A DNA stretch of 64,000 nt from Rhodovulum visakhapatnamense (GTDB lineage: Bacteria; Pseudomonadota; Alphaproteobacteria; Rhodobacterales; Rhodobacteraceae): assembly GCF_004365965.1 (NCBI RefSeq), contig NZ_SOEB01000013.1:1-64000 (forward strand). The letters run 5' to 3'. Below the pieces are notes generated by a model, which was not told where the DNA came from, made no database searches, and saw nothing but the letters and a program-made list of their open reading frames with translations. The position numbers and the translations under genes are program-made. Of this stretch, positions 2,784 to 22,233 are shown one piece after another (within the stretch, counting starts at the first letter, position 1; each line of letters opens with the position of its first letter).

Positions 2784-2808
2784 TGCCAATGCACCATAAG
2801 CTTGCACG
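2784..2808 (+). repeat. Left terminal inverted repeat of the Tn7-like element
   Basis: The sequence begins TGCCAATGCACC and ends GCTTGCACG. It is the perfect reverse complement of 25702-25726 over 25 bp, and recurs unchanged at 25733-25757. Confidence 0.85.
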
Positions 2809-2920
2809 ATTTGGCGTTTTTCATGCACACCCCCTGTCAAGAGGCTTGGGGCGCCGTGTCGAAGGTTTCTTCTAGCACACTGGGGTAGAACGGTATTTCA
2901 GCATACCCCGTGGCTAGCGG

Positions 2921-4939
2921 TCACTTACCTCCCTGAGATTTCAGGAGTGCCACAACCGGCTCAACAGCGTTGCGAAGATAGACCGGTCCCACATCCAAGC
3001 CGTTCGGACGGAACGGCTGGATACCTTCGTTCTGCAGAACGGCCCGAATCGTGTTCAAATGCGCAGCGGTTTCGGCCGACAGCATCGATGGCGTCGTATA
3101 GCTGGCCTCGAACGCAGCGATGTCGTCGCGGCTCATGCGCCATTCCCGACGCCTGGTCGTAGGATTCAAAACCAACATCGCAGGCGTGTAACCACCTTCG
3201 ATCAGAGCCAGGAATTGACCTTTCCCCCGAATACCCGCCGACCGGGCGAAGGCCGCTGCGGTCACCTCTCCTTGGCTGATCGATGGCTTGCGCTTCGGCG
3301 CGACCTTCGCCTTCAACGCTGCAACTTCAGTGATTTCCACCACAAGCCCGTGGTAACCGAACACATCAGGATGCTGACCAAGGCGCAGAGAACCCGTCCG
3401 GATGGCCGCAATGATCTCTCCAACAGGAAGGTCCAGCCGCTTGTGAACGCGCTGGATCGTCTCCCACCCTGGCTCCTCTGGGGCAACCGGCTGCGCATAG
3501 GCCTCCAACTCCTCGAGAAGAGCGTGGCCGTCCGCAATCCGCCAAGGCGATTTGATCGTTGCGACATTGGTCCTCGGGACGAGGACACCGTCTGCCTTCA
3601 ACCCGTTCAGTTCGGCCAGGGTTGCGCCGATTGCCTTTCGCAGCGCAATGGGACCAACCAGTGTCGGGATTTCATCAAGAATGTGCTGCCAGGCCTTCGC
3701 ATCAAAGGTCTTGCGGGCATCGGCACGCTTGTCACCGGGCGCAAACGCGCCCGCTTCTGTCAGGAAATCATCCAGCACAGCCGGGCCGATGCCGGTTTCC
3801 TTGGATGCTGACGTGAGGGAGTGGAGGCGCCGCTCTGTCACGGCCTGCCCGAGAAGGTCATCCCCTGGCGCCAACGGCCATATTTCCAGAAAATAGTCAC
3901 GAAGGATGCTGCGAAAGCCCGCAAAGGTATCGTCATCAAGATAGCTGCCCCTAAGGTGTCGGAGGAGCGGACCCAACTCTCCCTGCGTTACGATGTGGCC
4001 TCCGTCCTCCGATCGCATAAGAATGTCCAGAGCCGCTCGGACCCCATCAGGGCCTTGCGAGACATAGGCAAAGCCCGTGGCCTTGGCGCGCCGATCGTCC
4101 GGGGCCTTGCCCTGTTTGCGCAGCAAGGCGGAACCGATGAACTCACAGAGTGTGATTGCCGGAAACACCGACTGTGACGCCAGCCATGTGTCGTCCGCAG
4201 CGATACCCTGCGATAGACGCTTATCAAGCCAAAGGTCATAGTCGGTAGGATCAATGCGCGCGCAGTCGAATGATCCTGCTCGCAGGTCCGGCAGGATTTC
4301 CGCCAATCTCGCTCCAATGTCATCCCGCTCAATGGGGCGCGAGCTAGACCACAAGGGAACCAGCGGATGGTGGTGCTGGTGGCAAATATCAACGCCCCTG
4401 CAGAGCCAGTCCCCCCGCAAGGCAATGTGCCGCAATGGATGGGGCTGATCAGCTGCCTGCTCACGCATGCAGTGTGGACAGCCCCGAATGATCGGGTTTC
4501 GTAGCGCCCGCGAGACGAAGACTTCCTTCCGAAACCGCATCCGGACGTCTCCAATGCGTTCACCTGTCCAGGAGAGCAGCTCGACGAGCTGCGTGGCCGA
4601 CACCCCTGCGCGTTCTGCAAAAATCGCGACGGCCTCTTCGTCCTGCTCCAGGATACGCCGAAAGGTGATCCCGAGATCGAGGGCGAAGTTGGCAGCGTCG
4701 GTTCCATTCAGGATTGCAATGCGCGAAAACAGCGACGGGAGCGTCTCGCGGTCTACCGGCTCCACCGTAAGGGCAAGTCTCCGCAGCAAATACACCTCCT
4801 GTGTTCTCAAACGCCCTATGTGTTTGGATATGCGGTTCCATAGCCGTTTCGGGATCGGAAGCGAAGTCGCCATTCGCTGCAGCCGCGGATGAGACATGTG
4901 CAAAGCCGGAGGCTGCTGTGACCTCTGATCGAGCGGCAA
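2921..4939 (-). CDS. tniQ: TniQ/TnsD-family transposon targeting protein
   Basis: TniQ-family proteins choose the target site and bridge it to the TnsC ATPase during Tn7-like transposition. The 672-aa product has a TniQ-type N-terminal part with a zinc-binding signature (CPHC at about residues 154-157, then CRGVDICHQH around 180-189), and a long C-terminal helical part with helix-turn-helix-like stretches, as expected for a TnsD-length member. I chose the TTG at 4939 because GGGGAGG sits 6 nt upstream; ATG codons at 4897 and 4873 have no clear ribosome site. The gene begins 72 bp after the stop of the giant gene C, on the same strand, so it may be transcribed with the cargo operon and not with tnsABC. 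Its last 178 bp are duplicated at 25870-26048. Confidence 0.85.
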   Translation of the reverse strand: MPLDQRSQQPPALHMSHPRLQRMATSLPIPKRLWNRISKHIGRLRTQEVYLLRRLALTVEPVDRETLPSLFSRIAILNGTDAANFALDLGITFRRILEQDEEAVAIFAERAGVSATQLVELLSWTGERIGDVRMRFRKEVFVSRALRNPIIRGCPHCMREQAADQPHPLRHIALRGDWLCRGVDICHQHHHPLVPLWSSSRPIERDDIGARLAEILPDLRAGSFDCARIDPTDYDLWLDKRLSQGIAADDTWLASQSVFPAITLCEFIGSALLRKQGKAPDDRRAKATGFAYVSQGPDGVRAALDILMRSEDGGHIVTQGELGPLLRHLRGSYLDDDTFAGFRSILRDYFLEIWPLAPGDDLLGQAVTERRLHSLTSASKETGIGPAVLDDFLTEAGAFAPGDKRADARKTFDAKAWQHILDEIPTLVGPIALRKAIGATLAELNGLKADGVLVPRTNVATIKSPWRIADGHALLEELEAYAQPVAPEEPGWETIQRVHKRLDLPVGEIIAAIRTGSLRLGQHPDVFGYHGLVVEITEVAALKAKVAPKRKPSISQGEVTAAAFARSAGIRGKGQFLALIEGGYTPAMLVLNPTTRRREWRMSRDDIAAFEASYTTPSMLSAETAAHLNTIRAVLQNEGIQPFRPNGLDVGPVYLRNAVEPVVALLKSQGGK

Positions 4940-5011: not shown

Positions 5012-8000
5012 CTATTTCTCCGTCTCCCTGGCGAGCAGATCGCCAAGTGCGGAGCGGCGGATGCGTCCAGCTTTCTTCTTGAACCAGGTCGCAAGACCGG
5101 TTGCGACGAGGTCCGGCCCGATGTCGACAAGATCGGCTCCTGCGTGATCGCGCAGGATCTCGTTGAAAGTGTCAGCGTCTTCGTCATCCCCCATGTCGAG
5201 AATGGAAAGGGCTTTGCCCAGGGTGCCATTGAGAAGTCCTGCCGGCATACGGAAAGACACCTTCCATTCCCGAGCGACTTCCAGCGGGTCTTCCGCCACC
5301 CGCATCGCGGAGATCAGCTTGATGGTTTCGGAAGGGATGCCGCCGGCCGCCGCAAGAATGGCGGACCGCATCGGCTTGGTATCGAGCTCCACCTTTTCGA
5401 TATGGCTCAGGTGGATTCGGATCATCTCCGCCCCCCAGGCGGTGAGAAACTGGCTCTGTTCGGGCCGCCGCGTGGCGATGTCGCGCATCTCCGTGTTGGC
5501 GGCATCGAGAAGGAGAAGCGGGCGAACCTGCTTATTGAGAACCCGCGGCTGATGTTCGAGCCAGGTCAGCGCATCATGCGCCTCCTTGCGATCTTCCGGT
5601 GTGAAGACGAGGATCACCGGGTTTTGCGAGGCGCCCTTGCGTTCGACGGGTGCGCGCAATTCGCGCTTGCTGCGCACGATCTCCACGTTGATCCCCTGCT
5701 CGGGGGCTCCGGGCAGGTGGCCGGATTCGGCAATGCGCTTGAGCGACGAGCCGACCTTGGAAAGCCCGAGGGCCTCAAGGCCGCAGACGATCTGTCCGGT
5801 CGCATCCTGGGGCTGGACGATGCGCTCGATCTGGAGGTCGGTGAGCGGGCAGTAGGAAAACTCGCCCTGGTTGCCGGAGGTGTTCAGTTTGTAGCGCCGC
5901 CGATGGACGGAGCGGTCATAGGCTACCTCCGGATCCTTTTCCTCGATTTCGGCGAGCGCATGGTAGATGTCGTCCTCGGAGCCGAGCATGGTCGCGACCT
6001 GGCGCGAGCCCAGCAGGTAGCGGAAGCGCTTGGTTCCGGGGATCGGAACGCGGCCGAGAACGCCAAGGTCGAAGAGTTCCTCGAGCAAGGCTTCGAAGGC
6101 GGCGAGGGCCGGGATCTCGGAACTGCGCGGCCAGAAGGTGCTCGCCTCGTCGAGAAGCTCGCGTGGATCGAAGCCGGTGACCCGGGCCTTGTCTTCCTGG
6201 CCCTCGACGTTGAGCCTGCCGAGCGTATAGGCCACGAGCGCGTAACGTGGATCGAGATTCAGCGTGAGGTGGAACTTGAAGCGGATCCGGTTCTCGATCT
6301 CGCCAAAGCCGCGGTGATCAAAGAGGGTGTCGCTCGAGATCGGCCAGAGGGGATCGCCCTCGGGCAGTCGATAGGGCTTGCCCGAACCGCTGCCGTGGAG
6401 AGTGGAGAGAAGCCCCTTCATGTATTCCTGGATCAGAGAGGGGTAGTAGTTGGCCCAGGCCAGAATTTCCTCGATCGCCTCGTGATTCTCGAAACGGAAG
6501 CCCGCGGCGCGCATCGGCGAGACGACGAGATCATGCGCGGCGCGCTTGTCGTCCTCGGTCCGGTTCAGCGGACCGATGCAGATGGGCAGGCCGAGATGGG
6601 CGAGCGGAGAGTTCGGCTGGTGAGACATCCGCTGGACGTTGTGAAGGCCGGCGAAGACGACCTTGAACGCGCGCCCGCTCTCTTCCATCAATTTCTTGAG
6701 GCGGGCGAGCTCGGGGTAGTCGTCGCGGGTATCAGCATCCATGAAGTTGTCGGCTTCGTCGAACATGGCGACGATGTGACCCTGTCGATGGTGCATGAGC
6801 CAGGCCTTGATGTCACGCGAGACATCCTCGGCGTTGCGGCTGGCGGGACGCACGATCTCGGGTGAAAGCATCGAGGCGAGATGGGACCAGATCTCCGAAG
6901 GCTTCTCGGATTTCCCAAGCGGTCGGACCTCGCGCGTCACGACGATCCGGTCCTTCTCGGGGGCATGCTCAGTACGGGCGATATGGCCCAGAAGGGCGGA
7001 CTTGCCGAGCTGACGCCCGCCGTAGACGAGGCAGCCGTCAGCCGTTTTCGACATGATGAGGCGGATCTCTTCGCTGCGCCCGAAGAACATCTCGGGCGGC
7101 AGCTGGCCCGCGTCCGTTGTGTAGGGCTCGACGCGGCCATAGGGCAATCCGCATTCGAAGATGGTCCGGGCCCTGGCCTGACGGCGGGTTCCCGCGAAGG
7201 TAATGAGGGTCTCGTCGATGAGGAGTGCGGGGATCGCGTTGTCGCGCAGATGTTCGGCGAGTTCACGCCGCCGCTGGGCATCAATGACGCCGGCGAAAAG
7301 AAGGATCGCTGGCATGTCCGAAGAGAGAGTCTTCACGAGGTTCTCGGGAAGGGTATCGCGTCCGATTAGCACGAGATGAGCGCCGGCCCCGTTTGCGGCC
7401 TGCGAGCCGAAGACCGGCGGCAGGAACCAGTCGCCGGAGCGGAGGGGTTGGATCCGGCCGCCAAGCTGGGCCTGCCACAGTCCGGAACGGCCGACCGGCC
7501 GGGGGTTGTGGATCTTCACGCTGTCGTAGCCGATCTCCTCGAAGAGCACTTTAACCTTCGGCAGGTCGGGCTGCTTCGATTGCATCGAGGTGCCGATGGC
7601 GCGGTAGAGATGGATGAGATCAAGGCCGGCGCCGCGACGATCTTCCTCGATATGCAGAGGCCCCGCCGCGGCGACGGTGCGCTCGAGCGCTTCGCTGGTC
7701 GTGGGCCATTGCGCAGAGTTCGCATAGGCGAGGAAGTCGGGCAGGAAGTCGGACACGAGCCCGCCAAGTTCGGTCTGGAAGATCGCAGCGGAGCGACCAT
7801 CGCGAAGTTGCGCGATGCGGTCTTCGGCCGCCTCGACCGTGATGCCGTCGAGAGCCCCGAGCAGGGTGTCGGCTTCTTCCGAGTTGCGGTCGTTGCGGTA
7901 TTGGTCGATGCGCTGGACCTGGTCAGCGCGGATCTTGGCCTCGATCTGGGCGCATGTGGCGTCGATCTCGGCCGCAGCCGCCGGTAGTTCGGCAAGGTCG

Positions 8001-11000
8001 TGGACCTCGGATCCGTTGTCGACCGCCGTGAGGCGCCCCAGAAGGATCTCGCAGAGTGCAAGGCGCCTGGAGATCTCTTCCTGGTGCTTGTAGTCGACCT
8101 TCGAGAGGGTCTTGAGGCGGCGGACGCGGGTGTTGATCTCCGCGCTCCAGGTTTTCGCGAAGACCTTCATGTCATGGGTCAGGCCGTCCTGGACGTCGAT
8201 GCCGAAACGGCTGCCGAGACGGGATGCGGTATCGAAGGCGCCTTCCTCGCGCGCCTGGGCCAGGGCGCCTTTGGGATCGGGAATGACGGTTTTGTTGAGA
8301 AGATTGCTGAAGGCGTCGAAGCGGCCCTCGGGGATATCGAGCGTGTCACGCACCGAGGCGGGCAGAAGATCGCGTTCCGCGGCGAGCGCTTCATCGAGCG
8401 TCGCGAAGGCGCCGGTATCTTCTCCGCGCAGTGCCTGCAGGACTTCGCGGACCTGATCCGCAACCCAGTGGGCAGTTGCTCCAGCAAGTGTGTCGGGGGC
8501 GCTTGTCGCCTCCGCCCGCAGCCCGGTTTCGGCTTTCTGGAGGCGGGAGTTGAGGTTGCCGACGATGGTGCGCAGACGCGCCTCGGATTTCTGCCCCTGG
8601 CTGCCCTCGCGCATGGTTGCGTCGATCCAGCTGTCGAGAAGGCCGAGGGGCTCCTCGAGCTGGCGCTCGAGATACTCGATCCCCTTGGGGTGCAGGCGGG
8701 CCGTGTTGCGCCCGGCCTCGCTCGCGTATTCCGCGGCCAGCGTCTCGATTTTCGAGGCGGAAGAGAGACCGTCGATCGCCTCGCGGGCGAGGCTGGCCGC
8801 ATTCTTGTTGCCGTTACTGATCGCGGAGAGAGCCGCGCCGATGGGGCCGGCGGGCGAGGCGATGTGGTGCATGATGGCGGTGGCGAAGGGCCAGCGCGAG
8901 GTCTTGGCCGACACCGTGTCGGCCCATTTCCCGAGCTGGGCCGCAAGCCTCTGTTTCTGGGGCGTGCGTTGGCCACCGGAGAGGCTCGCCAGCTCGTCGG
9001 CGTCGGGCGGGAAGTCGTAATCGAGTTCCGAGATCGCATCGGTGGCCTGCTGCAGGTGCTGCCCGAGGCTGCCGCGGCAAAGCTCGTGGAGAATATTGCG
9101 CAGGCTGGAGAGGGAAGTCTCGAGCAGCGCGGGCCGGATCAATGCTCCGAGGAGCAGGATGGATCCGACATCGGATGCGGCGTCACCCGCCCCACGGGTG
9201 GCGAGTTCCAGGAACCGCTGGGTGTCAGCCCCGTATTTGCGATGGGGCGTGCGGCTGCCGGCGGCGGCCTCGAGGACAACGGCCCGGATCGGCCAGTGCT
9301 TGCCTTCGTGTTCGAAGCTCTTCGCCGCATCAGCGGCGATCCCGAGGAGATTGCGATGGATCAGGCTTGCCAGCACCGAGACTGGGACCGGCGGGGTGGT
9401 GTCGATGTCGATCTCGGCCACATAAGTTTCAGGCTCAATCCGAGGGATGAGATCGGGAAGCGCCTCGGGTTCAGAATATCTATCTTCCGCCGTTTCAATG
9501 GCAGACTGAATCGGTGCGTCTTCGAGGGGATTCTCGATATCGACGGAATCGGCGTCAGGCTGGGGATCGACGTCCTGCGGTTCGATCTCCTTCGCCGCGC
9601 CTTCGTTCTCATCGATGCCTGCGTGAGTGTTTTGCGCCTCGACGGTGTCTTCCTCGTATGCATCGGTGACAGTCGGCTCAGATGTGTTCCCCTCCGCCTG
9701 ATCGTGCCCAGCGGTTTCGGGATCATCGCTATTCACGACGTCGGAGGAGACGCTCGTGGCGTCGATGGGCGAGTTGTCCTCGACCGCGTCTTCGGGGTCG
9801 ACATCGTCCGCGGCGGTGTGGTCTTCGACAGGGTTTTCTTCGGCGTCGGGCAGGGTGAAGAGTTCGGATGCCAGGGAAGCATCGGCCTCGGCGTAGTCTT
9901 CTGTGTCCGGGTCGTTCTTCTCGATGAAGGCGCGCAGCTCGGCCAGCGCAGCATCCTGATCTTCCGTTGTGCCAGAGACCAACTCGCCAAGGCAGAGAAG
10001 AATGGCCTCCTGAACCTCGCGCGCGACGCGCAGGGCTTCCTTCTCCTCCCCCGCCTGCGGCGCGAGGCGGGTGAGAAGGGCGTAATCTTCCTCGGCATTC
10101 GCCGCGGCGATCGCCTCCTTGGTTTCCGCGATCTTTTCCTCGAGGTCGGCAATGGCAAGGTCCTGGATACGCACCCGCATGACGAGCCCCGCATCCAGCG
10201 CGGCAGAAAGCGTGGCGACCGCTTCGTCGGTGACGAGGTTGAGATCCACCTCGATTCCGAGTTTCCGGACATGTTCGATCACGGTTTCCTTGCGCGGGTT
10301 CTGCAGCAGCTTTGCCTGTTTTGCCGCGGCCCCGGAGAGTACCATGATGCCTTCAAGATCGTCGGCGCTGCTCGTCTGCGTGATGTGCTGGCTGAAATGC
10401 TTCAGGGTGGCGATGAGGTGGAGATGGAGGTGCTCGGAGACGGCGTCAGGGTAGTCGGACATGAGGGATGAGATCAGGGATGCGTGCTCGTCCCAATCCT
10501 GGATGTCATCGATCTGGCCGAGCTCGACCATGATGATGTCGGCAGGGCTGATATCCGATAGGATCTTCCTCGCCTCGATGTAGTGCTCTTCGAAGAGGCT
10601 CTTGTTTTCGATCTTCTGGTAGTAGGCCTCGATCGCGTATTCGCAGAAGGCTGCCACGGCGATATCGGGGACGACCGGCGGAAGAAGAAGTTCGCCTGTC
10701 CGCTCATGGAGATGTGGGTTTGCCTTGAGACGCAGTTTCGAAAGAGGAAATTTCTGCAGGACGTGGGAAACCTTGTTCTTGTTCTTGAAACCGCCGTTCT
10801 TGACCCTTTGCGGTGCGATGATCGTCTCGAGTATTGGAAGAACCCAGGGAGCCCCTTCGGCGCGCTCGAGGATGATGTGATAGATCGCCTCCGCATCGTG
10901 ATGATCTACGTCGAGGCCGAAGGTCGAGACGATATTGCGGAGGTCGCGCGCCGAGAAATGGCCTGCCTGCGCAAAGTAGGCTGGAGCCTCAGGGCAGATT

Positions 11001-11224
11001 TCCAGAAGGGGAAAGTCACCGAAGCTTTCGAGCTTTTCCCAGTCCTCGGTCGTCCATCCGGCCATGACGATGCAAGCGGGATGGGACTTCGGGAAATCCG
11101 TCTTTCCAGGGGTCTTCCTGGAGATGGAGAACTCCGTCATCGTCGAACGGACAGTTGGATCGAGGGGTTTGTGCTTGAGCATGAAGGCGCCTGTCTGTCT
11201 TTCGATGTGTTTCAGATGTCCCAT
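5012..11224 (-). CDS. Giant STAND-like P-loop ATPase, third gene (C) of putative defence operon
   Basis: The product is 2070 aa and I do not recognise a named family over its full length. Visible architecture: an N-terminal helical region (1-430), a very acidic low-complexity linker (about 435-600, rich in D, E and A), a long helical middle, then a STAND/AAA-like core. The core opens with FFGRSEEI (about 1378), has Walker A GGRQLGKS (about 1403) and Walker B IVAMFDEAD (about 1488), and is followed by a winged-helix-like stretch and a basic C-terminus ending in KKKAGRIRRS. The FGR-plus-GKS arrangement is typical of STAND switches that sense and then activate. The start overlaps the end of gene B by 13 bp, so translation is probably coupled. 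ATG codons at 11182 and 11140 are alternatives. A sensor or effector role in phage defence is inference from context. Confidence 0.7.
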   Translation of the reverse strand: MGHLKHIERQTGAFMLKHKPLDPTVRSTMTEFSISRKTPGKTDFPKSHPACIVMAGWTTEDWEKLESFGDFPLLEICPEAPAYFAQAGHFSARDLRNIVSTFGLDVDHHDAEAIYHIILERAEGAPWVLPILETIIAPQRVKNGGFKNKNKVSHVLQKFPLSKLRLKANPHLHERTGELLLPPVVPDIAVAAFCEYAIEAYYQKIENKSLFEEHYIEARKILSDISPADIIMVELGQIDDIQDWDEHASLISSLMSDYPDAVSEHLHLHLIATLKHFSQHITQTSSADDLEGIMVLSGAAAKQAKLLQNPRKETVIEHVRKLGIEVDLNLVTDEAVATLSAALDAGLVMRVRIQDLAIADLEEKIAETKEAIAAANAEEDYALLTRLAPQAGEEKEALRVAREVQEAILLCLGELVSGTTEDQDAALAELRAFIEKNDPDTEDYAEADASLASELFTLPDAEENPVEDHTAADDVDPEDAVEDNSPIDATSVSSDVVNSDDPETAGHDQAEGNTSEPTVTDAYEEDTVEAQNTHAGIDENEGAAKEIEPQDVDPQPDADSVDIENPLEDAPIQSAIETAEDRYSEPEALPDLIPRIEPETYVAEIDIDTTPPVPVSVLASLIHRNLLGIAADAAKSFEHEGKHWPIRAVVLEAAAGSRTPHRKYGADTQRFLELATRGAGDAASDVGSILLLGALIRPALLETSLSSLRNILHELCRGSLGQHLQQATDAISELDYDFPPDADELASLSGGQRTPQKQRLAAQLGKWADTVSAKTSRWPFATAIMHHIASPAGPIGAALSAISNGNKNAASLAREAIDGLSSASKIETLAAEYASEAGRNTARLHPKGIEYLERQLEEPLGLLDSWIDATMREGSQGQKSEARLRTIVGNLNSRLQKAETGLRAEATSAPDTLAGATAHWVADQVREVLQALRGEDTGAFATLDEALAAERDLLPASVRDTLDIPEGRFDAFSNLLNKTVIPDPKGALAQAREEGAFDTASRLGSRFGIDVQDGLTHDMKVFAKTWSAEINTRVRRLKTLSKVDYKHQEEISRRLALCEILLGRLTAVDNGSEVHDLAELPAAAAEIDATCAQIEAKIRADQVQRIDQYRNDRNSEEADTLLGALDGITVEAAEDRIAQLRDGRSAAIFQTELGGLVSDFLPDFLAYANSAQWPTTSEALERTVAAAGPLHIEEDRRGAGLDLIHLYRAIGTSMQSKQPDLPKVKVLFEEIGYDSVKIHNPRPVGRSGLWQAQLGGRIQPLRSGDWFLPPVFGSQAANGAGAHLVLIGRDTLPENLVKTLSSDMPAILLFAGVIDAQRRRELAEHLRDNAIPALLIDETLITFAGTRRQARARTIFECGLPYGRVEPYTTDAGQLPPEMFFGRSEEIRLIMSKTADGCLVYGGRQLGKSALLGHIARTEHAPEKDRIVVTREVRPLGKSEKPSEIWSHLASMLSPEIVRPASRNAEDVSRDIKAWLMHHRQGHIVAMFDEADNFMDADTRDDYPELARLKKLMEESGRAFKVVFAGLHNVQRMSHQPNSPLAHLGLPICIGPLNRTEDDKRAAHDLVVSPMRAAGFRFENHEAIEEILAWANYYPSLIQEYMKGLLSTLHGSGSGKPYRLPEGDPLWPISSDTLFDHRGFGEIENRIRFKFHLTLNLDPRYALVAYTLGRLNVEGQEDKARVTGFDPRELLDEASTFWPRSSEIPALAAFEALLEELFDLGVLGRVPIPGTKRFRYLLGSRQVATMLGSEDDIYHALAEIEEKDPEVAYDRSVHRRRYKLNTSGNQGEFSYCPLTDLQIERIVQPQDATGQIVCGLEALGLSKVGSSLKRIAESGHLPGAPEQGINVEIVRSKRELRAPVERKGASQNPVILVFTPEDRKEAHDALTWLEHQPRVLNKQVRPLLLLDAANTEMRDIATRRPEQSQFLTAWGAEMIRIHLSHIEKVELDTKPMRSAILAAAGGIPSETIKLISAMRVAEDPLEVAREWKVSFRMPAGLLNGTLGKALSILDMGDDEDADTFNEILRDHAGADLVDIGPDLVATGLATWFKKKAGRIRRSALGDLLARETEK

Positions 11225-14200
11225 TGCGGGTCAATTTTGACGCCGGCATCGAGCAGGATCGTCTCGATCCATGCCTGGGCCGGGCGGCGATTGAACATGT
11301 GCCAGTGGCGCTGGTTCGAATAGTCGTTGAGGCAGCGCGTGCAGCTGGTGATGCAATCGGGGTTGGGACAGTTGAGGATCTTGCGGGCGGAGAGAAGGAG
11401 ATCTCGCGCGAGATACCCGGTCTCGTTTGTCAACCGCGTGGCGTAGCCCGCCCCGCCGGAGACGGAATCGTAGATGACGACAACGATGAGGCCGTCGAGT
11501 TTCTGAACGAGCGCGCGAAGGTCACGCGGATTGGTTTCCAGGAGTTCGGCGGCGCCGAGCCGCAAGGCCTCCTGCAGCGTGCGTTCGAGCGAGTTGTCAG
11601 AGGAGATGGCGTCCCCCGAGGGGGTTGCGGGGAGGCTCTCGAAGAGAAGACCGCGGACATCGGTTTCGAAGACATGGGCGAGATCGATCGGCCAAGCCTG
11701 TTTGGTGGGATCAAAACGGCAAGGCTGTCCGCTGCGTGGGTTGACATGGGGAGCGAGAAGCGTCGGCTGTTGCCAGGCGAGGTCGGGACCATGTCCATGC
11801 GCAGGCACGGCGTGCTCGCAGCTCGGGCACCAGGCGAAGCCGCCGCCATGGCGTCCGCGATTGACGGTGATGATGCGCCCGAGTTCATCCTCGGGCCGGT
11901 TCGAGCCCGGCGCGTGGAAGGTCAGGATGCCGGGCAGGTCGGTCGCGGTGTATTTGGAGCGTGGAGCCTCCGTGAGAAGCAGGGCCTCATCGGAGATTGT
12001 CGGACGGATCCGGGTCGCGCCCGGGTCGCGCCCCTGACCATCGGCGACGGAAGTGACGAAACCATGGGGCCGGATGAAGGCCCGGGTCGCATTGGTCTTG
12101 TGGAACACGGCGCCGCATTGCGGGCAATGCTTCTTTGGCTCCACGCCCTGGAGGGTGATCTGGGGAGAACGGCAGGCACCGCAGACCCGGTATTGGGATC
12201 GTTCGATGAAGGCGTCGTCTCCGGTGAATTTCGATCGCTTGGAAATCCCGGCGCTTACCCAGACTCGGCCTCCGGCGACGATCTCGGCGCTCGGCGCGTA
12301 TTCGGAAATTCCGATCGAGCCGTCGCGGTCGAGTTCGAGCACGGCGGTGTCGGCGGTCTGACCGGCCGTATTGAGAACCTCGAGCGAGACCGAGTGAACC
12401 GGAAACGAGTAGGTGGGGATGATCGCTCGCCGCGATAGCTGGTCGATCAGGAATTGGTTCATGTAGAGCTTCTGTTGGGTGCGCAGGGCGCCCAGCGACC
12501 GGTCGATCTTGATGAACTTGTCGGCTTCCGTCTTTTGGAGATCGTTTCGGCGTGCCTCGAGGTCGTCGATTGCTTCCTGCATCAGTCCGAAACGACCCCA
12601 GGCCATGTCCGCGAATTGCGAGATCCGCTCGCTCAGGGCGGCCTTCAGACCTGCCGCGTCGAGCGCGATCGATCGAAGGGAAGGAGGCAAGCGGGTGGCC
12701 AGGTCTGCGGCGGCCTCAAGGTCCGGGTCCGCCCGCTCGATCCAGTCGGCGAAGGAGGTGTCGAACGTCTTTCTGGCCTCCTCTGTCAGGGCATCGGCGA
12801 AGACGTCACGCATGCGGGGAGATCCCGTCCGGGTGTATCCCGCGAGGCGGTGTTCGAGGAAGCGCGCGAGCAGCATCGAGAGCTGGTGACGACGGAAAAA
12901 GCCCGCGTTGTCAAGGCTGAGGTAGGGGATGATCGGCTGGGCCGCGAGATATTCGGAGAACTTCTCGAAGACTGCCCGGTCATAGCGCCCGGAACGCGCA
13001 GTGGTGAGTACGATTGGCGCGACCTGGGCGCGGCGTCCGGCGCGTCCCGCGCGTTGCTGGTAGTTGGCGATCGAGGGCGGGACGTTCTTGCACAGGACCG
13101 ACTCGAGATCACCGAGGTCGACCCCCATTTCCATGGTGGTCGTGCAGGACAGGAGGTTGACTTCGCCTGCCTTGAATTTCTCCTCGATCTCGGACCTGAT
13201 CTCGCTGGAGATCGCCGCGGTATGTTCGCGCGCAATGCCCATTTGCGGATGCTCGCGGTAGCGGGCCACGTAGTGGTTGCGAGCATCGAGGGTCTGGCGT
13301 TCGTCCCGCGGAACCTCGTGGAGCTTTCCATTGCATCTCATGGACTGGCAGACGCCGGCAGTATCGAATTGGGTTCGCGTGCCGCAGGACAGGCATTGGT
13401 AGAGCGACACCTCGGAGCCGGGAAGAATGAAGAGGCCCCGGTCGAGTTTCAGGCCGCGTCCCACACCATGTTTCGAGGTCATCGATTTCGGGTGCTCGAT
13501 GGCTTTCCAGAATTGGGTCAGAACATCGCGGACCTGGTTCTCGTCGATTGTCGTGCCGCAGGCCTGGGCCATGCGTTCGAGAAGGTTGGTGAAGCGGTTC
13601 TGCCGGCCGGCGGTCGGCACGAGGCTGAGCGGAAGGTTCGTGTGGGGATTGCGCTCACGGCTCACGCAGCGGTTCTGTTGTGAGGCGATACGCGTCCAGA
13701 TCGACTCGTCCTCGAGGTCGATCATGCCGGATTCTTTCTGCGCGATCGCGCGGTGCTCGCGGATCATTTTCAGCAGGTAGCGGACGTAGGTATCGGCGTA
13801 GGGTTTCATGGCGTCGGGAAGATCGCGCCGGACCATCTCGACGGGCCGTGCGATGGCGTCATAATCCACCCCGATGAGACCGAAGCCCTCGAGGCTGAGA
13901 CGTCCCCGCCCGAAGACCGTGATCTCGGCGGCGACGAGAGCCTTGAGGCGGAGACGTTCGTTTTCCCCGGTCTCGCGCTCGGGAACGACGCCGGGACGGT
14001 AGAGGCGAAGCCCGTCGGCCTGAAGCTCGCGCAGGATCGCGCCGGTGATGTTGTCGATATCCATGCGCCCGCTGCGCTCGACGACTCGAAGGATCGCACT
14101 GCGCACTGCCTGTTCGCGTGATGTGCGCTCGAAGAAAGGGGCGAAGAAAGCGGCATCCTGGCGGTTATCGGAGAAGACGAGGAGATTGCGTCCGCCCATC

Positions 14201-16152
14201 GGGGGGGTGGTGCCGAGATCGTGTGACGGCATGGATTCGAGGAGGGTCTGGGCGGCGACTGCCGCGATCGCCTCGTCGCCGGGACGTACGGTTGTGATGG
14301 GCTCATTGAATCGCGCGGAGCGATGATTGCAGGCCACGCAGCGGTGCATGTAGCGCTTGCCGTCATCGGGATCCTGTTCGAGAGTCACGGCCTCGAGGGC
14401 AACCGTGCCGGGTGTTCCCTCCTCCATCGGATGCCCGTTCGAGGGATCGAGATGGACCATCTGGCCGGGAAGGGCGATCTCGGTGTCATCTTCCCCCTCG
14501 ATCGCCAGCCCGCCCGGCACAAGCCGCAAGAGATGGCGGTCTCCCGCGCCAGGCGTCGGGTCGAGGGAAATGCCGTTGTCCCAAGCTTCGAGGTAGGGCT
14601 CGCCGCAGTTGCGGCAGACGTAGAGCTCGTAGACCGGGCGGTCCTCGTCGTCACGTTCGGCCCCGATCAGGACTTCGCGGAGATTGTCAGCGCCGCCGGC
14701 CGCAAGCGAAATCCCGGTGCGGTCCGGCGCCCGCGAGATCAGGTGATAGCGGGCAGGAAGAAGCGGAAAGACCGCTGCGTCGGCACTGACGGCGAGAACG
14801 CCCACGGAAATCAGCCCGACGAGCGCGGCGACGGCCGCTTCCCCTTCATCGGGAAAGACCTCGCGCGCGAGGATTTCGATTGCGACCGATCCGCCTTCGA
14901 GACGCCGGGCGATGCGGTGGATTTCCTCGAATCCGGCGAGCCTTTCGATCAGCGCATCGCCGAGAGAGGGGGCGTCATCGAGGTGCAGTCTGGGAAGGTC
15001 GAGAAATTCGGTCTCGAGATTCCAGTCCTCGATCGACATCGGCGTGTCGTTCTGGACCGCGTCGCGCGCGGCTTCGGCAAGATCTCGTGCCCGCGCCCAG
15101 TGTTCGGGAGAGAGGCCGCTCGGCATGGCGCCGCCGGCCAGGCTGGGATGGATCTTGCGTTCCGAGGTGATGACGGAGATCTCTCCGGCGAAGGGTTCGC
15201 CGAAGAGCCGAGAGGCGAAATCCGCAAGTTCCGACTTGCGGCGGGGATCGAGCGAGGCCGAGGTCCCGGTGCAGCGGATCTGCCCGTCGGGGATGCCGAG
15301 ATGGGCCTTGAGCCTGCGCAGCAGGAAGGAGACCTCGATCGCCTGGGCGCCGGCATATGTGTGGATCTCGTCGAGCACGATACGGCGCAGGTCAGCGCCG
15401 GCCAGCAGTTGCCGATTGGTCGGAAGGAGCAGGATGTGCTCGAGCATCGCGTAGTTGGTGATCAGGATGTGCGGCGGAGCCTCGCGCATCTCCGCGCGGG
15501 AAAGGAGCCAGTTCGCGGGCACGTCGGCATCCTCGCCGAATGCCTCGAGGAAACTCGGGGAGGATCGAAGGCGCGTGATTTCCTCATCCCGCGTGGCGCG
15601 CGACTTGATCTGGCCCGTGTATCTTCCCAGCGTGATGCCGGGATCGCCTAGGTCGTGAAAGAGGAGCTTCGCTATCCGCCCCAGTTGGTCGTTGGCCAGC
15701 GCGTTCAGGGGGTACACGAGGATCGCGCGCACTCCCGGGCGTTCGAGATCCCCCTGGGACAGGATGTCGTTGACCAAGGGGTAGAGGAAGCTTTCGGTTT
15801 TTCCTGAACCGGTTCCGGTGGCGACGAGGTAGTTGTCCTGCCGCCTGATTGCCGCTTCCTGGTGAGCGTGCAGGGGCCGGGCGAAGACGGCAGGAGCTGT
15901 CGAGGCGAGGGTTTGCCAATGCGGCGTGAGAAGGCCTTCTTCATGGAGTCCGCGGAGAGATTTTCCCTTCTCGAAATCGGGAAGGGTCTCGACATAAGGC
16001 CCTTTGACGAAGTCGAGCTGCCCGATGACGTTCCTGAGCTCCTCCGCGAGACGGGGCGCACGGATGTCGTTGATTGGCGAAGACGTCGCGACAAAGCGCG
16101 CAAGGACGTTGTTGAGATGCTCGCGGAAATCGTTGGGATTGAGGGTCGTCAT
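11212..16152 (-). CDS. DEAD/DEAH helicase with C-terminal DUF1998 (DruE-like), gene B of putative defence operon
   Basis: This 1646-aa superfamily 2 helicase has Walker A ATGTGSGKTES (about residue 112), a DEIH box in RRIVLDEIHTYAG (about 261), a C-terminal helicase lobe with TTTMEMGVDLGDL and motif VI QQRAGRAGRR (about 1036), and a final cysteine cluster CPNPDCITSCTRC (about 1597) characteristic of DUF1998/MZB proteins. Several CxxC pairs lie in between (VCRNCGE, HRCVACN, QCLSCGT with CQSMRC, VCGACRS with CPQCGA, WCPSCEH), so it probably binds several zinc ions. Helicase-DUF1998 proteins are hallmarks of Druantia (DruE) and, split in two, of DISARM (DrmA/DrmB); bacterial MrfA has the same layout. 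It overlaps gene A by 4 bp (ATGA) and gene C by 13 bp. Helicase function is firm; membership of a named system is not. Confidence 0.88.
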   Translation of the reverse strand: MTTLNPNDFREHLNNVLARFVATSSPINDIRAPRLAEELRNVIGQLDFVKGPYVETLPDFEKGKSLRGLHEEGLLTPHWQTLASTAPAVFARPLHAHQEAAIRRQDNYLVATGTGSGKTESFLYPLVNDILSQGDLERPGVRAILVYPLNALANDQLGRIAKLLFHDLGDPGITLGRYTGQIKSRATRDEEITRLRSSPSFLEAFGEDADVPANWLLSRAEMREAPPHILITNYAMLEHILLLPTNRQLLAGADLRRIVLDEIHTYAGAQAIEVSFLLRRLKAHLGIPDGQIRCTGTSASLDPRRKSELADFASRLFGEPFAGEISVITSERKIHPSLAGGAMPSGLSPEHWARARDLAEAARDAVQNDTPMSIEDWNLETEFLDLPRLHLDDAPSLGDALIERLAGFEEIHRIARRLEGGSVAIEILAREVFPDEGEAAVAALVGLISVGVLAVSADAAVFPLLPARYHLISRAPDRTGISLAAGGADNLREVLIGAERDDEDRPVYELYVCRNCGEPYLEAWDNGISLDPTPGAGDRHLLRLVPGGLAIEGEDDTEIALPGQMVHLDPSNGHPMEEGTPGTVALEAVTLEQDPDDGKRYMHRCVACNHRSARFNEPITTVRPGDEAIAAVAAQTLLESMPSHDLGTTPPMGGRNLLVFSDNRQDAAFFAPFFERTSREQAVRSAILRVVERSGRMDIDNITGAILRELQADGLRLYRPGVVPERETGENERLRLKALVAAEITVFGRGRLSLEGFGLIGVDYDAIARPVEMVRRDLPDAMKPYADTYVRYLLKMIREHRAIAQKESGMIDLEDESIWTRIASQQNRCVSRERNPHTNLPLSLVPTAGRQNRFTNLLERMAQACGTTIDENQVRDVLTQFWKAIEHPKSMTSKHGVGRGLKLDRGLFILPGSEVSLYQCLSCGTRTQFDTAGVCQSMRCNGKLHEVPRDERQTLDARNHYVARYREHPQMGIAREHTAAISSEIRSEIEEKFKAGEVNLLSCTTTMEMGVDLGDLESVLCKNVPPSIANYQQRAGRAGRRAQVAPIVLTTARSGRYDRAVFEKFSEYLAAQPIIPYLSLDNAGFFRRHQLSMLLARFLEHRLAGYTRTGSPRMRDVFADALTEEARKTFDTSFADWIERADPDLEAAADLATRLPPSLRSIALDAAGLKAALSERISQFADMAWGRFGLMQEAIDDLEARRNDLQKTEADKFIKIDRSLGALRTQQKLYMNQFLIDQLSRRAIIPTYSFPVHSVSLEVLNTAGQTADTAVLELDRDGSIGISEYAPSAEIVAGGRVWVSAGISKRSKFTGDDAFIERSQYRVCGACRSPQITLQGVEPKKHCPQCGAVFHKTNATRAFIRPHGFVTSVADGQGRDPGATRIRPTISDEALLLTEAPRSKYTATDLPGILTFHAPGSNRPEDELGRIITVNRGRHGGGFAWCPSCEHAVPAHGHGPDLAWQQPTLLAPHVNPRSGQPCRFDPTKQAWPIDLAHVFETDVRGLLFESLPATPSGDAISSDNSLERTLQEALRLGAAELLETNPRDLRALVQKLDGLIVVVIYDSVSGGAGYATRLTNETGYLARDLLLSARKILNCPNPDCITSCTRCLNDYSNQRHWHMFNRRPAQAWIETILLDAGVKIDPQWDI

Positions 16153-19100
16153 GCGGAGGGGGATCCATCCTTGCTGGCATGCGCCCAGAGCGCACGGAAA
16201 TAGGCGAAAAACTCGACGCCGCCCCTCAGCATGAGGGTCAGTGCCTGCCCGACTTCGCGCCGGGGTAGGCCGGTTCGAAACACGACGTCATCGACGAAGG
16301 CGTGAGACCGGCGTTCGGCGCAACTGCGGGCAAGGCGCTCGACCTGCGCGGCGATCCGGGCGGGAAGCGGGTCCGCACCTCCGCCCGTATCGAAGGAGCG
16401 AAGTTTCTCGAGGCCTTCAACATGGGCGCCGCAGATCAGCTTGACGGTTCCCGCAAGCGTCTCTTCCCCGACGAGGTCGTGGAGATCGGTTTCCTTGAGC
16501 CGCCAGCGCAGGGCCTGGAAGGCATGCTGGAGCCTGTCTGCCTGGAATCCGGTTGGGATGCCAGCACCCGTCGAGACGCGCCCGAGCCAGTCCGAAAGTG
16601 GCGTATCTCCATCGACGCGCGGAGGCGGCACGGGCGAGGGTTCTCCGGCCATGTCGGAGATCGGCGCAAGGCCGGTGTCGGTGTCGAGGCCGCCGAAGGC
16701 GATCGGGCTTGCCTCGAAGATCCAGGGAGTGGCGCCGACGAGGTCGTGCCGGGGTGGCTGCCGATCCTCCCGGACAACGGCGAGCAGAGGCTTGATCGAT
16801 CCGAGCATGTGAGACTTGCCGACGTGATCCAGTGCCGCCTCGTAGGCTGGCGAGAGAGCCCGACCGATTTGTCCGCCCAGGCTGTCCGGCTGGGGTTCGG
16901 CGAGAAAGCGGGCAAGATCGAGGAGATGGCCTCGCTGCGGCGTGTCGATCTCTCCGGCAAGCCCGATCGCGACCGGTGCATTGCGGACATCGCGAAGCGG
17001 AAGGAGTACCCCCGCGTTGTCGCGCAGAAGAAAGGTGGCGCGCGCCGGCGCGGGCAGCTGCGAAGGATCGAGGATGACCTCGACCTGGCTGGTCGCGGGA
17101 TCGCGCTTGGAGCGAACGCCCTGAAGCGAAGGAAGGTCGAGGGGTGCGCGGCCGAAGGCATATTCCCCCTCGATCAGGGCTCCGCGGACGGGCTCTATGC
17201 GAACCCGAAGGGCGTCGCAGTCTGTCCGGGGGGTAAAGCGCAGGCGGATCTCATCGGGGTCTTCGCTGATTTCGAGGCCCGCCGGGTCGGTGGCGCGGCG
17301 AAGCCGGGCGAGAAGATCGACGCGCCCGTCCGCCCTCCGCAGGGCAATGCGGTCGTCTTCAGTGTCCTCTTCGAGATCCGCCGCACCGATCTCAATGGTC
17401 TGTCGTCGATAGAAGGGACGCCGGGTCTCACGGCCGAGAACGAGAAGCGAGGCGTCGCGGTCCGGCGAGCCCAGGATGAGGGCATCGTGTCGGTTGGCGT
17501 GACCGAAGACCAGCGTGGCCCCGCGCGGGACGTAGACCCTGTCGCCGCGGGCCACCCGGAAGTGCCAGAGTTTCTCGCCACGGGCGACAAGGCGAAATTC
17601 GTGAACTCTGTCAGGACCGGAAAGCCCGAGGATCGGGGTTTCCTGGTCAGCCTCGGGATCGACCGAGAGGCGCCCGTCGATCGCGCGCAGCCCGGCGCTG
17701 CGCGCAGGGTCAAAATTGGCAGGGATCGGGACGTCCGCAAGGTCACCGTCGGGGGCGGAGATGCCGGGCCATATCCAGCAGCGCGTGGTCAGGGCGACCC
17801 GCGCCTCGAGGTCTCCGGCCGCCCCGGGCGTAAGGACCTCGAAGAGGACTTCCGCTGGATCAGCGAGGGCTTCGAGATGGGCGTCGGCAAAGGCCATGCG
17901 GAGTTCGCCGGTGGCGCCGAGATCGACCTGGTGGAAACGGACCTGTCCGCCGATGCGGGTCCGGATGATCCGGGTTGGCCCGCCGATCTCCGGGTCGATC
18001 CGCACCTGCAGCCCGCCGTTGCAGGCATAGAGGGCCCTGCTTCCGTCGCGCCCGAGAACCGGAGCGTCGATCCAAATGGCGTCTTCGACCGGACGCGTGA
18101 ATGAAAGGTCGGAGCGACCCTCGAAAGCGAGGGTTTCGTCCGCATTGACCCAGGCAATTCTGAAGGACGCATCCTTTGCGGGGATGGCATCGCCGAAAGA
18201 AAGGCTTGTGAAAGGGGCTGCGGAAAGGACGATGAGCCGTTCTGCGGCAATTTCCAATTCCCCCTGTTCAGAGGAGAGGCGAGAGAGCATGGCGCCGGTG
18301 TCGGCATCGAAGACCAGAACCTCACCTTCCGCAGGGGCAAGGGGGATGTCCCGGGAGAGGGTGCCCGCGGTCCAGCGAATGGTCGGGCGCCAAGGCGGGG
18401 GCACCTGGAGGCGTTTGCCGCCAGCAAGTCGAGTCGGGATGGCCCCGAGCCGCAGGGATTGTAGTTCGCGCGACGTCTCGGTTTCGAGGGTGAGGTGATC
18501 TCCCGTCCAGACGAGGCGCGGCGGGCCGACGATGTCGGCTCTTGAACGACCAAGGCTTCGTGCCGCCTGATCATAAGCTTCGAAGAGATGGGCTTCGGTA
18601 TCTCCCACGGGGCTTTCGCCCTGTCGCCAGGCCTCGAAGCGGCGGGCGACATGGGCGGAGGTGTCGAAGGCGATGGTCGCCTTGAGGCGGGCGAGTCCTG
18701 CACAGCGATCGGCCACAATTCTTCTCTGCCAGCGCCGTGCGGAAGCCGTATCCTCGATTGCTGGCGGGCCAATGTGGAGGGCGGCACCGACAAAGGCTCG
18801 GGCGAGATCACCGTGGTGGGCATGGGCCGGACCGAGTGGTGCGAAAAAGAGGCCTGTCGGCTCGTTGCCGAATACCGGCAGGCCGAGAGCCCGGGCGGTG
18901 CGGCGGTAGCGGGTCTTGAGATCCTCGCGGGCCTCCTGTTCATCAAAGCTCTCGCCGACGAAGCGGCTGATATGGCGGTAGACCTCATTGGTCGAGATGC
19001 CGTAGTTGCGCGCAAGCGGGATGAGAACGGCCCAGACCGCGAGCGTCGGGGCAGAATTGAATAGGCGCCACAGCGGTATCTCGTGAGCGAAATGTGCCGC

Positions 19101-19283
19101 CTCGTCGAGGAGATCACCGCGAGTTTGGATGTCTGTGATAAACGGAGTAGAAGTTGGACCGGTCCATGCGGCATTGAAGGCAGTTTCGACCCATGCCAAT
19201 CGATCAAGCGACACATTACTCTCGGCACTCAAGCGGGAGAACCCTCCGTTTATAATATTGTTTTTACTGATAAAACTGTACAT
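16149..19283 (-). CDS. Large protein of unknown family, first gene (A) of putative defence operon
   Basis: The 1044-aa product has no motif I recognise: no P-loop, nuclease or methylase signature, transmembrane segment or signal peptide. The N-terminal third is helical. The middle, rich in short V/L/F strands with many D, R and P residues (about 300-750), looks like repeated beta-sandwich modules. The C-terminal 120 residues are helical and may be winged-helix-like. The annotated start (ATG 19283) has no ribosome site. A TTG at 19232 lies 9 nt after GGAGGG and downstream of an AT-rich, promoter-like stretch, so a 1027-aa protein is at least as likely. It overlaps gene B by 4 bp. As the first gene it may supply specificity or an adaptor for the helicase; that is inference. 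Confidence 0.7.
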   Translation of the reverse strand: MYSFISKNNIINGGFSRLSAESNVSLDRLAWVETAFNAAWTGPTSTPFITDIQTRGDLLDEAAHFAHEIPLWRLFNSAPTLAVWAVLIPLARNYGISTNEVYRHISRFVGESFDEQEAREDLKTRYRRTARALGLPVFGNEPTGLFFAPLGPAHAHHGDLARAFVGAALHIGPPAIEDTASARRWQRRIVADRCAGLARLKATIAFDTSAHVARRFEAWRQGESPVGDTEAHLFEAYDQAARSLGRSRADIVGPPRLVWTGDHLTLETETSRELQSLRLGAIPTRLAGGKRLQVPPPWRPTIRWTAGTLSRDIPLAPAEGEVLVFDADTGAMLSRLSSEQGELEIAAERLIVLSAAPFTSLSFGDAIPAKDASFRIAWVNADETLAFEGRSDLSFTRPVEDAIWIDAPVLGRDGSRALYACNGGLQVRIDPEIGGPTRIIRTRIGGQVRFHQVDLGATGELRMAFADAHLEALADPAEVLFEVLTPGAAGDLEARVALTTRCWIWPGISAPDGDLADVPIPANFDPARSAGLRAIDGRLSVDPEADQETPILGLSGPDRVHEFRLVARGEKLWHFRVARGDRVYVPRGATLVFGHANRHDALILGSPDRDASLLVLGRETRRPFYRRQTIEIGAADLEEDTEDDRIALRRADGRVDLLARLRRATDPAGLEISEDPDEIRLRFTPRTDCDALRVRIEPVRGALIEGEYAFGRAPLDLPSLQGVRSKRDPATSQVEVILDPSQLPAPARATFLLRDNAGVLLPLRDVRNAPVAIGLAGEIDTPQRGHLLDLARFLAEPQPDSLGGQIGRALSPAYEAALDHVGKSHMLGSIKPLLAVVREDRQPPRHDLVGATPWIFEASPIAFGGLDTDTGLAPISDMAGEPSPVPPPRVDGDTPLSDWLGRVSTGAGIPTGFQADRLQHAFQALRWRLKETDLHDLVGEETLAGTVKLICGAHVEGLEKLRSFDTGGGADPLPARIAAQVERLARSCAERRSHAFVDDVVFRTGLPRREVGQALTLMLRGGVEFFAYFRALWAHASKDGSPSA

Positions 19284-20070: not shown

Positions 20071-21168
20071 ATGCCCAAAATCCGCTTCATCTTGAGCAAA
20101 CAGCCCGATCCCGCGCTAGAAGAGGCCGCGATCATCAAGCGTCTCAAGGAATTCCATAGCCGCTTGCAGGACAAGCGGCAGATTTCCGACGGCATCCCCC
20201 TGGAAGAGCGCGCTGCCCACAATGAATTATGGCGTTACCCGCAGAATGAGCTCCCGAAGGCGCTCGAGATCCGGATCAGGCGGTGGGCGCAGAAGATCCA
20301 TCGTAACCATCTGAAGGACGTCGAGCCAACCCGACTTTCACGAGAAGACCGGGCGATGCTGGAAGGATGCCGCGGCGGCGCCGAGATATTCGACCTGCGC
20401 TCGGCGCATCATATCGACGAGATCGCAGCGGCGCTTCATGCGGAGTTTCCCTGGATCGCGGAAGCGACAACCCATGTTTGGCGCAGCCTTCATCATAGCC
20501 TGGCAAGTGGCATGCCCGGCGCCCGATTTGCACCAATTCTTCTCGATGGCCCGCCTGGGATCGGGAAAAGCGCATGGGCACGGCGTCTCGCGCAGCTTCT
20601 GGGAACGCCGGATATGATCGTGGATGCCACCGGAGAGAATGCCAGTTTCGGACTTGTCGGAAGTCAACGCGGCTGGTCAAATGCCGGCCCCGGCCGGCTC
20701 GTGAGCCTGATGCTGATGCGGCAGATTGCAAATCCGCTCGTCATCATCGACGAGATCGAGAAGTCCGGCTCGGTCATGTCCGACAAGGGCCGGTCTTTCA
20801 GTCTGCCGAATGCGCTTCTCCCGCTGCTCGAGGAAATGACAGCCTGCCGCTGGACCTGTCCATATTTCCAGAACCAGTTCGATATGTCTTTCATCAACTG
20901 GGTCTTCACCTCCAATAGCCTGCGCGGACTGCCGGAACCGCTCGTGTCACGGATCCGCGTCGTCAGCGTACCGTCTCCCACCCAGGAACAAATCAATGAG
21001 CTCGTCCTGCGTGAGGCCGAGAGGCGGCAGCTTTCCCCGCTCATCACCGCGGCCATCACGACCGCGCTGGCTGAGGCGTTCGAGGCAGGCCATCAGATCA
21101 ACATCCGGACCGTCAAACGGATGCTGGAGCTGGGCTCGGACCAACAGGGGCGGCCGATGCTCCATTGA
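20071..21168 (+). CDS. AAA-family ATPase (Lon/ClpX-like core) in the transposition operon
   Basis: The 365-aa product has a helical N-terminus of about 130 residues, then an AAA+ core with Walker A GPPGIGKS (160-167), Walker B LVIIDEIE (223-230), a sensor-type VFTSNSL and an arginine-finger-like LVSRIRVVSV. It resembles the ATPase module of Lon-type proteins, without a protease domain. It lies directly upstream of tnsA on the same strand, separated by about 310 bp. It is not one of the canonical Tn7 proteins, since the tnsC-type ATPase is a separate gene at 24545. It could be an extra remodelling or regulatory ATPase of the element, or cargo. The function is unknown. Confidence 0.7.
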   Translation: MPKIRFILSKQPDPALEEAAIIKRLKEFHSRLQDKRQISDGIPLEERAAHNELWRYPQNELPKALEIRIRRWAQKIHRNHLKDVEPTRLSREDRAMLEGCRGGAEIFDLRSAHHIDEIAAALHAEFPWIAEATTHVWRSLHHSLASGMPGARFAPILLDGPPGIGKSAWARRLAQLLGTPDMIVDATGENASFGLVGSQRGWSNAGPGRLVSLMLMRQIANPLVIIDEIEKSGSVMSDKGRSFSLPNALLPLLEEMTACRWTCPYFQNQFDMSFINWVFTSNSLRGLPEPLVSRIRVVSVPSPTQEQINELVLREAERRQLSPLITAAITTALAEAFEAGHQINIRTVKRMLELGSDQQGRPMLH

Positions 21169-21480
21169 CTGGAGTGGCCCAGATTATCCATTAAAAATCA
21201 GATGGTTGAATGAGTTTTCCACATTCATGAAGGCCTGGCGACGCGTTTTCAATTGGGATTTTCGCCGACTTCGCGGAAAATGAGCGCATGGCCCACCCAA
21301 GCACTGTCGGGTGGGTCAGGTCGGAATTTCGCCCAGGACGGGCACCAGAAGCAGAGGTACTGCCGCATCATCACATCTGTCACGCTACCGACAGCGGTTG
21401 GGCGTGGCAAGAGTGGCATGTCCTCTTGAAAAGAAACAAAAATGCACCCGGCGCAACGCTGTTCCGGGAACGGAGAAGTC
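21169..21480. other. Intergenic spacer upstream of tnsA
   Basis: No gene is visible. It contains an inverted repeat CCCACCC/GGGTGGG (21292-21298 and 21309-21315, 10-nt loop) without a T-tract. The tnsA ribosome site (CGGAGAAG) lies at the far end. Confidence 0.4.
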
Positions 21481-22233
21481 ATGTCTGCCGATCAGACTAT
21501 TGATCATGACAGCTGGAACTACTCGCCGGCGAAGCTGCCCAGGCAGTCCAAGATCAAACTCGGGCGGATCCACGGTGTCCTGCCTTTCACCGGCGTTCGC
21601 AATCCCGGCTTCCGGAGCTCGAGCTCGCATCGGGTGTGGATGACGTATAGGACCATCGCGAATGACTTCCAGCCCAAGTCCGGCATTGCCGAAAGTGCAG
21701 CGGAAGCCGCCGTCGCCCACGAGCTGCTGCTCTCGCCTCTCCTCTATGATCTGCAATTCCAGCCGCTGACGGTCTATCTGCGTCCTGGTGACCGCAAAGG
21801 TCCGAGCTATACTCATGACCTGCTTGCCACTTTCGTGGATGGACGGCGCGTACTCGTCTTTGTCCGCAATTCCGACAGCTTGGAAAAGCCCAAGACATGG
21901 CGCGAAATCGAAACGATCCAAGCGGTGACACCCTCGAGCGCTGCAGATAGCATGATCATCGTCGATGCTGGCCGCTATTCGCGACAGCGACGGGAAAACC
22001 TGTTCCGGCTGCATGAGGCCGTCCAGACACCCGATCCGGAGATCGACGACGTGGTGCTCTGGACAGCCCGCAGCCATTGTTCACTCTGGCTGATGCGGGA
22101 TCTTTTTCCGCTGCTCGACTTGCCGCAGAAGACGGTCTTTAAATCCTGCTACCGCCTGATCGCGCGTGGCGCCCTGCGTGCGAACCTCGATCATGTGATC
22201 GCGGAATGGTCGCGCGTCGAGGTTGCGTCATGA
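21481..22233 (+). CDS. tnsA: TnsA-like endonuclease subunit of transposase
   Basis: TnsA nicks the 5' ends of Tn7-like elements so that they move by cut-and-paste together with TnsB. The 250-aa product has TnsA organisation: a restriction-endonuclease-like N-terminal half and a helical C-terminal half. Candidate catalytic residues are a glutamate in IAESAAEAAVAHE (71-81) and D113 in YTHDLLATF. Where homologues carry an E/Q-x-K after the strand, this protein reads VFVRN (127-130), so the lysine position is arginine (R129) and the acidic residue is F127. It may therefore be impaired or use a variant site. I chose ATG 21481 because GGAG precedes it; upstream in-frame ATG 21442 lacks one. It overlaps tnsB by 4 bp. 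Confidence 0.75.
   Translation: MSADQTIDHDSWNYSPAKLPRQSKIKLGRIHGVLPFTGVRNPGFRSSSSHRVWMTYRTIANDFQPKSGIAESAAEAAVAHELLLSPLLYDLQFQPLTVYLRPGDRKGPSYTHDLLATFVDGRRVLVFVRNSDSLEKPKTWREIETIQAVTPSSAADSMIIVDAGRYSRQRRENLFRLHEAVQTPDPEIDDVVLWTARSHCSLWLMRDLFPLLDLPQKTVFKSCYRLIARGALRANLDHVIAEWSRVEVAS

Follow-up and report, generated by a model that had tools for sequence, protein, structure and literature searches.

A stretch of 64,000 nucleotides from Rhodovulum visakhapatnamense (contig NZ_SOEB01000013.1, positions 1 to 64,000; hereafter the window) carries three very large genes, which we designated A, B and C. The genes follow one another on the minus strand in the order A-B-C, each is an open reading frame (ORF) without internal stops, and neighbouring genes overlap by 4 bp and 13 bp (Table 1). 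The gene lengths and overlaps given in an earlier note on this DNA, written from the letters alone, were confirmed. That note had proposed the triad as an undescribed defence system. A and C indeed match no named system, but B itself belongs to the DruE family, and the system is therefore a relative of Druantia and not an unrelated one. The triad is neither an unrelated new system nor plain Druantia III, and represents a variant of the Druantia kind. The operon probably serves in defence, and A, B and C would act as one unit.

The helicase B and its partner A

Three domains were detected in B above cut-off, DEAD (PF00270, 58.9 bits), Helicase_C (47.8 bits) and MZB (PF09369, 42.9 bits). The MZB match is the 'DUF1998' cysteine cluster, so that B is the DEAD helicase with a DUF1998 cluster that the earlier note had described. 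All of the motifs GTGSGKT, DEIH and QRAGRAGR are intact, as are seven CxxC. When B was compared with PADLOC, seven DruE models scored 303-551 bits (DruE1 550.6, DruE3 538.9), all of them above the best non-DruE model, at 91 bits. By sequence, B is a DruE/YprA-family superfamily 2 (SF2) helicase with an MZB zinc cluster.

B ends 37 aa beyond the cut point after MZB, and the seven triad rows compared have 37-44 aa there, whereas six canonical Druantia III DruE rows have 394-403 aa. The C-terminal tail of about 400 aa of canonical Druantia III DruE is thus absent from B; in PMC12458937 and PMC13192584, the tails of canonical DruE are given a PLD identity. Among helicases of A-B pairs the picture varies: this region has 360 aa in L044, 355 aa in L048 and 409 aa in L069, against 29 aa in L042 and 26 aa in L047; L045 is cut by the contig end in this comparison. 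In a helicase tree of 24 rows, the triad and A-B pair helicases formed one clade of 13 (100/100) and the six canonical Druantia III DruE grouped separately (100/100); the program flagged long branches, and resolution is lacking at the base of the B clade. A near-duplicate (L003), two broken or split genes (L043 and L046) and a helicase at a contig end (L068) were left out of the tree. Bell et al. (PMC12458937) describe a separate Druantia III-like, or III-B, branch whose helicases are most often without nuclease, and B may belong to it.

Other systems with a YprA-family helicase were considered. DISARM was rejected, as DrmA scored 52.9 bits against 550.6 for DruE, MZB lies inside B, and no DrmB match was found in A or C. 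ARMADA was rejected because neither a BrxHII-like helicase nor a PglX-like methyltransferase is among A, B and C. Druantia I, II and IV were rejected since no DruA-D, DruM/F/G or DruF/L partners were found, and A and C gave zero PADLOC families at E 0.1.

Separately, three cyanobacterial plasmids (L053:4116-14312, L054:4319-14195 and L055:3468-14306) share an operon with a DruE-family helicase of 2.1 thousand aa; one or two of its genes total about 900-1150 aa (967 in L053, 898 in L054, two genes in L055), and a gene of about 310 aa is also present. On a Rhodobacter plasmid (L058:2755-18232), DUF1156 and DUF499 genes lie directly before a pair of STY4851 (DruH-type) gene and helicase.

Gene A matched zero families in PADLOC, Pfam and NCBIfam at E 0.1, in agreement with the earlier note, which had assigned it to none. 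An AlphaFold2 model built from 14 sequences (pLDDT 79.1, pTM 0.53) shows a helical N-part (residues 26-243), a beta-only Ig-like array (256-775) and a helical C-part (784-1036), and searches with A return Ig/FN3-type domains. DruH (9tud_A) is absent among the matches listed for A, which excludes nothing. In PMC13192584, DruH is reported to have Ig-like and baseplate-J-like domains and three central alpha/beta domains, to be a likely phage sensor, and to diverge more than DruE. A resembles DruH in its position before the helicase, its Ig-like content and its faster divergence (47-64% identity for A against 68-82% for B in L005-L008). It differs from DruH in having no detectable sequence relation to it and a model centre that is beta-only. 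By this analogy, A may work like DruH and is proposed as a putative sensor.

The ATPase C and its other partners

Searches of Pfam with C returned AAA_16 and ATPase_2 only, both below cut-off. The Walker A and Walker B residues are kept in 16/16 aligned relatives, and the predicted fold of the ATPase part is STAND/Orc-like. C has a triad-type N-region, an acidic linker, a helical middle, the ATPase and a C-terminal alpha/beta region. With these Walker motifs and this modelled fold, C is a STAND/Orc-like ATPase, in line with the STAND-like switch ATPase of the earlier note, and would be a STAND-type ligand-driven oligomeriser with an effector output. It is like STAND NTPases, archaeal ATPase_2 and Orc-Cdc6 in predicted ATPase fold and motifs, and unlike them in that the regions on either side are very large and match no family.

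Relatives of C were found beside other systems. In L010, C is preceded by DruH (90.6 bits; this gene runs off the contig) and DruE3 (1951 bits). In L020, a short gene, designated D, comes after C, and then DruH (1356 bits) and a helicase of DruE type. The helicase before C in L009 and L096 was assigned by BLAST, and in G386 DruE- and DruH-like matches lie about 7-11 kb away from C. In Azospirillum, a 3256-aa protein carries the ATPase of C as its C-terminal part, together with pPIWI_RE_X, MID and RNaseH domains above cut-off, a likeness to pPIWI-RE systems; the triad differs from these in having no PIWI, MID or RNaseH domain. As C stands beside canonical Druantia III and is fused to pPIWI-RE, we regard it as an add-on.

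Gene D lies just after C, and in 13 aligned loci it ends in R-x3-A-H in all 13 rows chosen. This R-x4-6-H motif of D we take to be the HEPN RNase signature. Matches of D to Pfam HEPN are below cut-off, and at least one copy has an AAA_33 kinase-like domain above cut-off. The rows are ORFs after C with similarity to D; loci without such an ORF (L021, L073, L074, L076, L093 and L094) were left out, and matches to D found by tblastn (L011, L013, L089 and L098) stand outside the 13. No match to the D profile was found among the triad proteins and flanking ORFs (145 targets, nine loci).

These observations are consistent with a reading that we hold tentatively, at a little under even odds: C, often with the HEPN-RNase-like D, would be a portable switch-and-effector module, attached separately to canonical Druantia III, to the A-B pair and to pPIWI-RE, that gives DNA-targeting systems STAND-type, possibly abortive, responses. 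In the triad, the module would function in the absence of D, next to a helicase that has no nuclease. No description of A-B-C or of a C-HEPN module was found in titles, or in text where examined, in open PubMed Central.

Two C relatives have unusual ORFs. A cyanobacterial one (L073:7594-14463) starts with four sigma-70 regions, and another (L095:7804-16599, 2931 aa) has an EamA transporter match before the C part and is either a fusion or an over-long ORF.

Conservation and carrier of the triad

Searching genome contigs with C gave 14 relatives: seven keep A, B and C in order (L002-L008), two have a DruE-type helicase and C (L009 and L010), and in L011-L014 only C was found. In L015:6716-7144, the first 55 aa of A abut residues 1956-2022 of C, a scar that looks like an operon deletion, an assembly fault being the alternative. 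A decayed copy on a Sinorhizobium plasmid retains A in three pieces and the end of C, has no match to B, and is accompanied by IS elements. The gene order recurs in relatives; A-B without C and C without A-B also occur.

Among 394 genomes of the family (own genome counted), 14 yielded A and 9 yielded C; the searches behind these numbers scored no more than two candidates in any genome. Just four genomes, those with triad-type A, have both (0.32 expected, hypergeometric 1e-4); this is not independent evidence, as all four share one descent. A was found in 3/385 and C in 3/385 genomes of the class sample (own counted), and A in 3/398 of the phylum sample, one of them a weak match with stops. As few genomes in these samples carry A or C, the triad is rare. 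Ten non-triad A loci were opened, with the A-positive genomes G096 and G109 left out; B adjoins A in nine, and the tenth (L052) has a split A without B. B lies at or near the end of the stretch in L042, L045 and L068, where it is the genome searches that indicate a lack of C. Since A-B recurs without C, the two-gene Druantia-III-like unit appears to be the core.

The triad is enclosed by a 22,943-bp element whose ends are perfect 25-bp inverted repeats. TniQ and TnsC/TniB above cut-off, together with these repeats, identify it as a Tn7-like transposon; the TnsA and TnsB matches are below cut-off. The left flank ends CACTATGC and the right flank begins CACTAT. HsdR lies just beyond the left end, and the earlier note's account of a Tn7-like element beside a restriction gene therefore stands. 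Its view of the triad as the only cargo does so in part: the triad is inside the element, but so is a 365-aa AAA ORF, either cargo or a transposition helper, which is 94.5% identical in the sister copy of Sinirhodobacter ferrireducens (L051). The triad of S. ferrireducens is accompanied by TniQ, the AAA ORF, TnsA and a portion of TnsB, at identities of 88-95%, and in Paenirhodobacter enshiensis a 97%-identical stretch of 14.7 kb comprises the triad and short flanks without tns genes.

The 25-bp repeat has a third copy at 25733 (three matches in the window against a mean of 0.00 in 100 shuffles), the only one in the whole assembly beyond the two element ends. It opens a second, related transposon left end (25733-26047), 6 nt after the right repeat of the first element and 88% identical to 2784-3083 over 300 nt. 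It is a candidate remnant of a related element, or a candidate tandem insertion beside one.

Table 1 Positions of the operon and of its carrier element in the window
Feature	Position	Strand	Remarks
Gene A	16149-19283	-	1044 aa
Gene B	11212-16152	-	1646 aa
Gene C	5012-11224	-	2070 aa
STAND/Orc-like ATPase part of C (predicted)	5930-7129	-	about residues 1366-1765; FFGR box, Walker A GGRQLGKS, Walker B MFDEAD
Left terminal inverted repeat	2784-2808	+	
Right terminal inverted repeat	25702-25726	-	
TniQ-domain gene	2921-4939	-	672 aa; PF06527 68.2 bits, cut-off 27
AAA ATPase ORF, Lon-like	20071-21168	+	365 aa; PF00004 35.7 bits, cut-off 21.2
TnsA-like ORF (weak match)	21442-22233	+	NF033179 15.9 bits, cut-off 110; adjoins the TnsB-like ORF
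TnsB-like transposase (weak match)	22206-24503	+	rve 20.8 bits, cut-off 32.6
TnsC/TniB-like ATPase	24545-25519	+	TniB 41.0 bits, cut-off 22.4

A proposed anti-phage unit and its alternatives

The triad is like Druantia III in having a large partner gene with Ig-like content directly before a DruE-family helicase, in its 4-bp overlap, of a kind common there, and in its mobile carrier. It is unlike Druantia III in that A has no detectable relation to DruH, B has no C-terminal tail, and a third gene, C, is present. Druantia III is recognised by DruH beside DruE, and by sequence A is not a DruH.

We propose, at about even odds, that A-B-C protects against phages and arose from a two-gene unit of the Druantia III kind: A would sense, B would engage the DNA, and C would take over from the missing tail as switch and effector. 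Following reports on DruH, the Ig-like array of A would recognise a phage product. B would load on phage DNA intermediates with single-stranded parts, an action modelled on DruE. A and B would then switch on C, which would oligomerise and deliver the response in place of the tail. At the triad, no HEPN-like partner was found of the kind that comes after C elsewhere; the output therefore probably lies in C itself, perhaps in its triad-type N-region. The unit moves as cargo of a Tn7-like element, and also by other routes.

Several results weigh against this proposal. The alignment of A with eight DruH by hhalign gave a probability of 0.1, and PADLOC DruH models missed seven distant relatives of A at E 1. 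The top PADLOC model for B is that of type I, DruE1, slightly above DruE3, as is also the case for two A-B pair helicases, one cyanobacterial helicase and one Meiothermus helicase. Nuclease or toxin activity was not located in the triad. A-B pairs recur without C, and the strongest points against coupling are the pairs whose B is tail-less although C is absent (L042, 29 aa; L047, 26 aa) and L094, where a triad-type C has no A-B before it and the best B-like match in the genome is 46 bits.

Some of these results bear on an alternative that we consider less likely, namely that the operon is an ordinary member of the Druantia III-like or III-B branch of Bell et al. (2025), in which A is a DruH too far diverged for sequence comparison to recognise, the tail-less B is its DruE partner, and C is an accessory that can be dispensed with. 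The existence of A-B without C, the Ig-like array of A in the place of DruH, and the helicases of the branch, which are of DruE type, stand apart from canonical III and usually lack a nuclease, argue for it. The hhalign and PADLOC results for A and its distant relatives argue against it, as does the beta-only centre of the A model against the alpha/beta centre described for DruH. In addition, C is retained in 8/8 intact triads, the main text of Bell et al. uses none of the words DruH, NTPase and HEPN, and a C-type ATPase was not found in the text of PMC12458937 examined.

It is less probable still that C is an independent defence gene sharing the operon with A-B by chance, without cooperation. 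C relatives with neither A-B nor DruE in view (L012, L017, L018 and L077), and the triad-type C of L094, would fit such independence, but the genes overlap, their order is fixed over 45% identity of C, and C occurs again beside DruE-type helicases in L009, L010, L020 and L096. A service to the transposon or to DNA repair instead of defence is very improbable: the operon sits inside a transposon and YprA-like helicases include repair enzymes (PMC12458937), but the triads of L002 and L004-L008 have no match nearby to the tns genes of the window (other transposon families were not tested), and all other PADLOC models for B are outscored by those of DruE.

The picture of Druantia III as a sensor combined with a helicase-nuclease is still emerging. 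If the proposed anti-phage system is real, the pairing of a tail-less DruE with a STAND-like ATPase would split the last blow off from sensing and helicase loading, and this would make signal transfer by DruE directly testable. An ATPase shared by Druantia and pPIWI-RE would likewise link systems that have been treated as unrelated, and a profile of this switch ATPase would help to find more of them.
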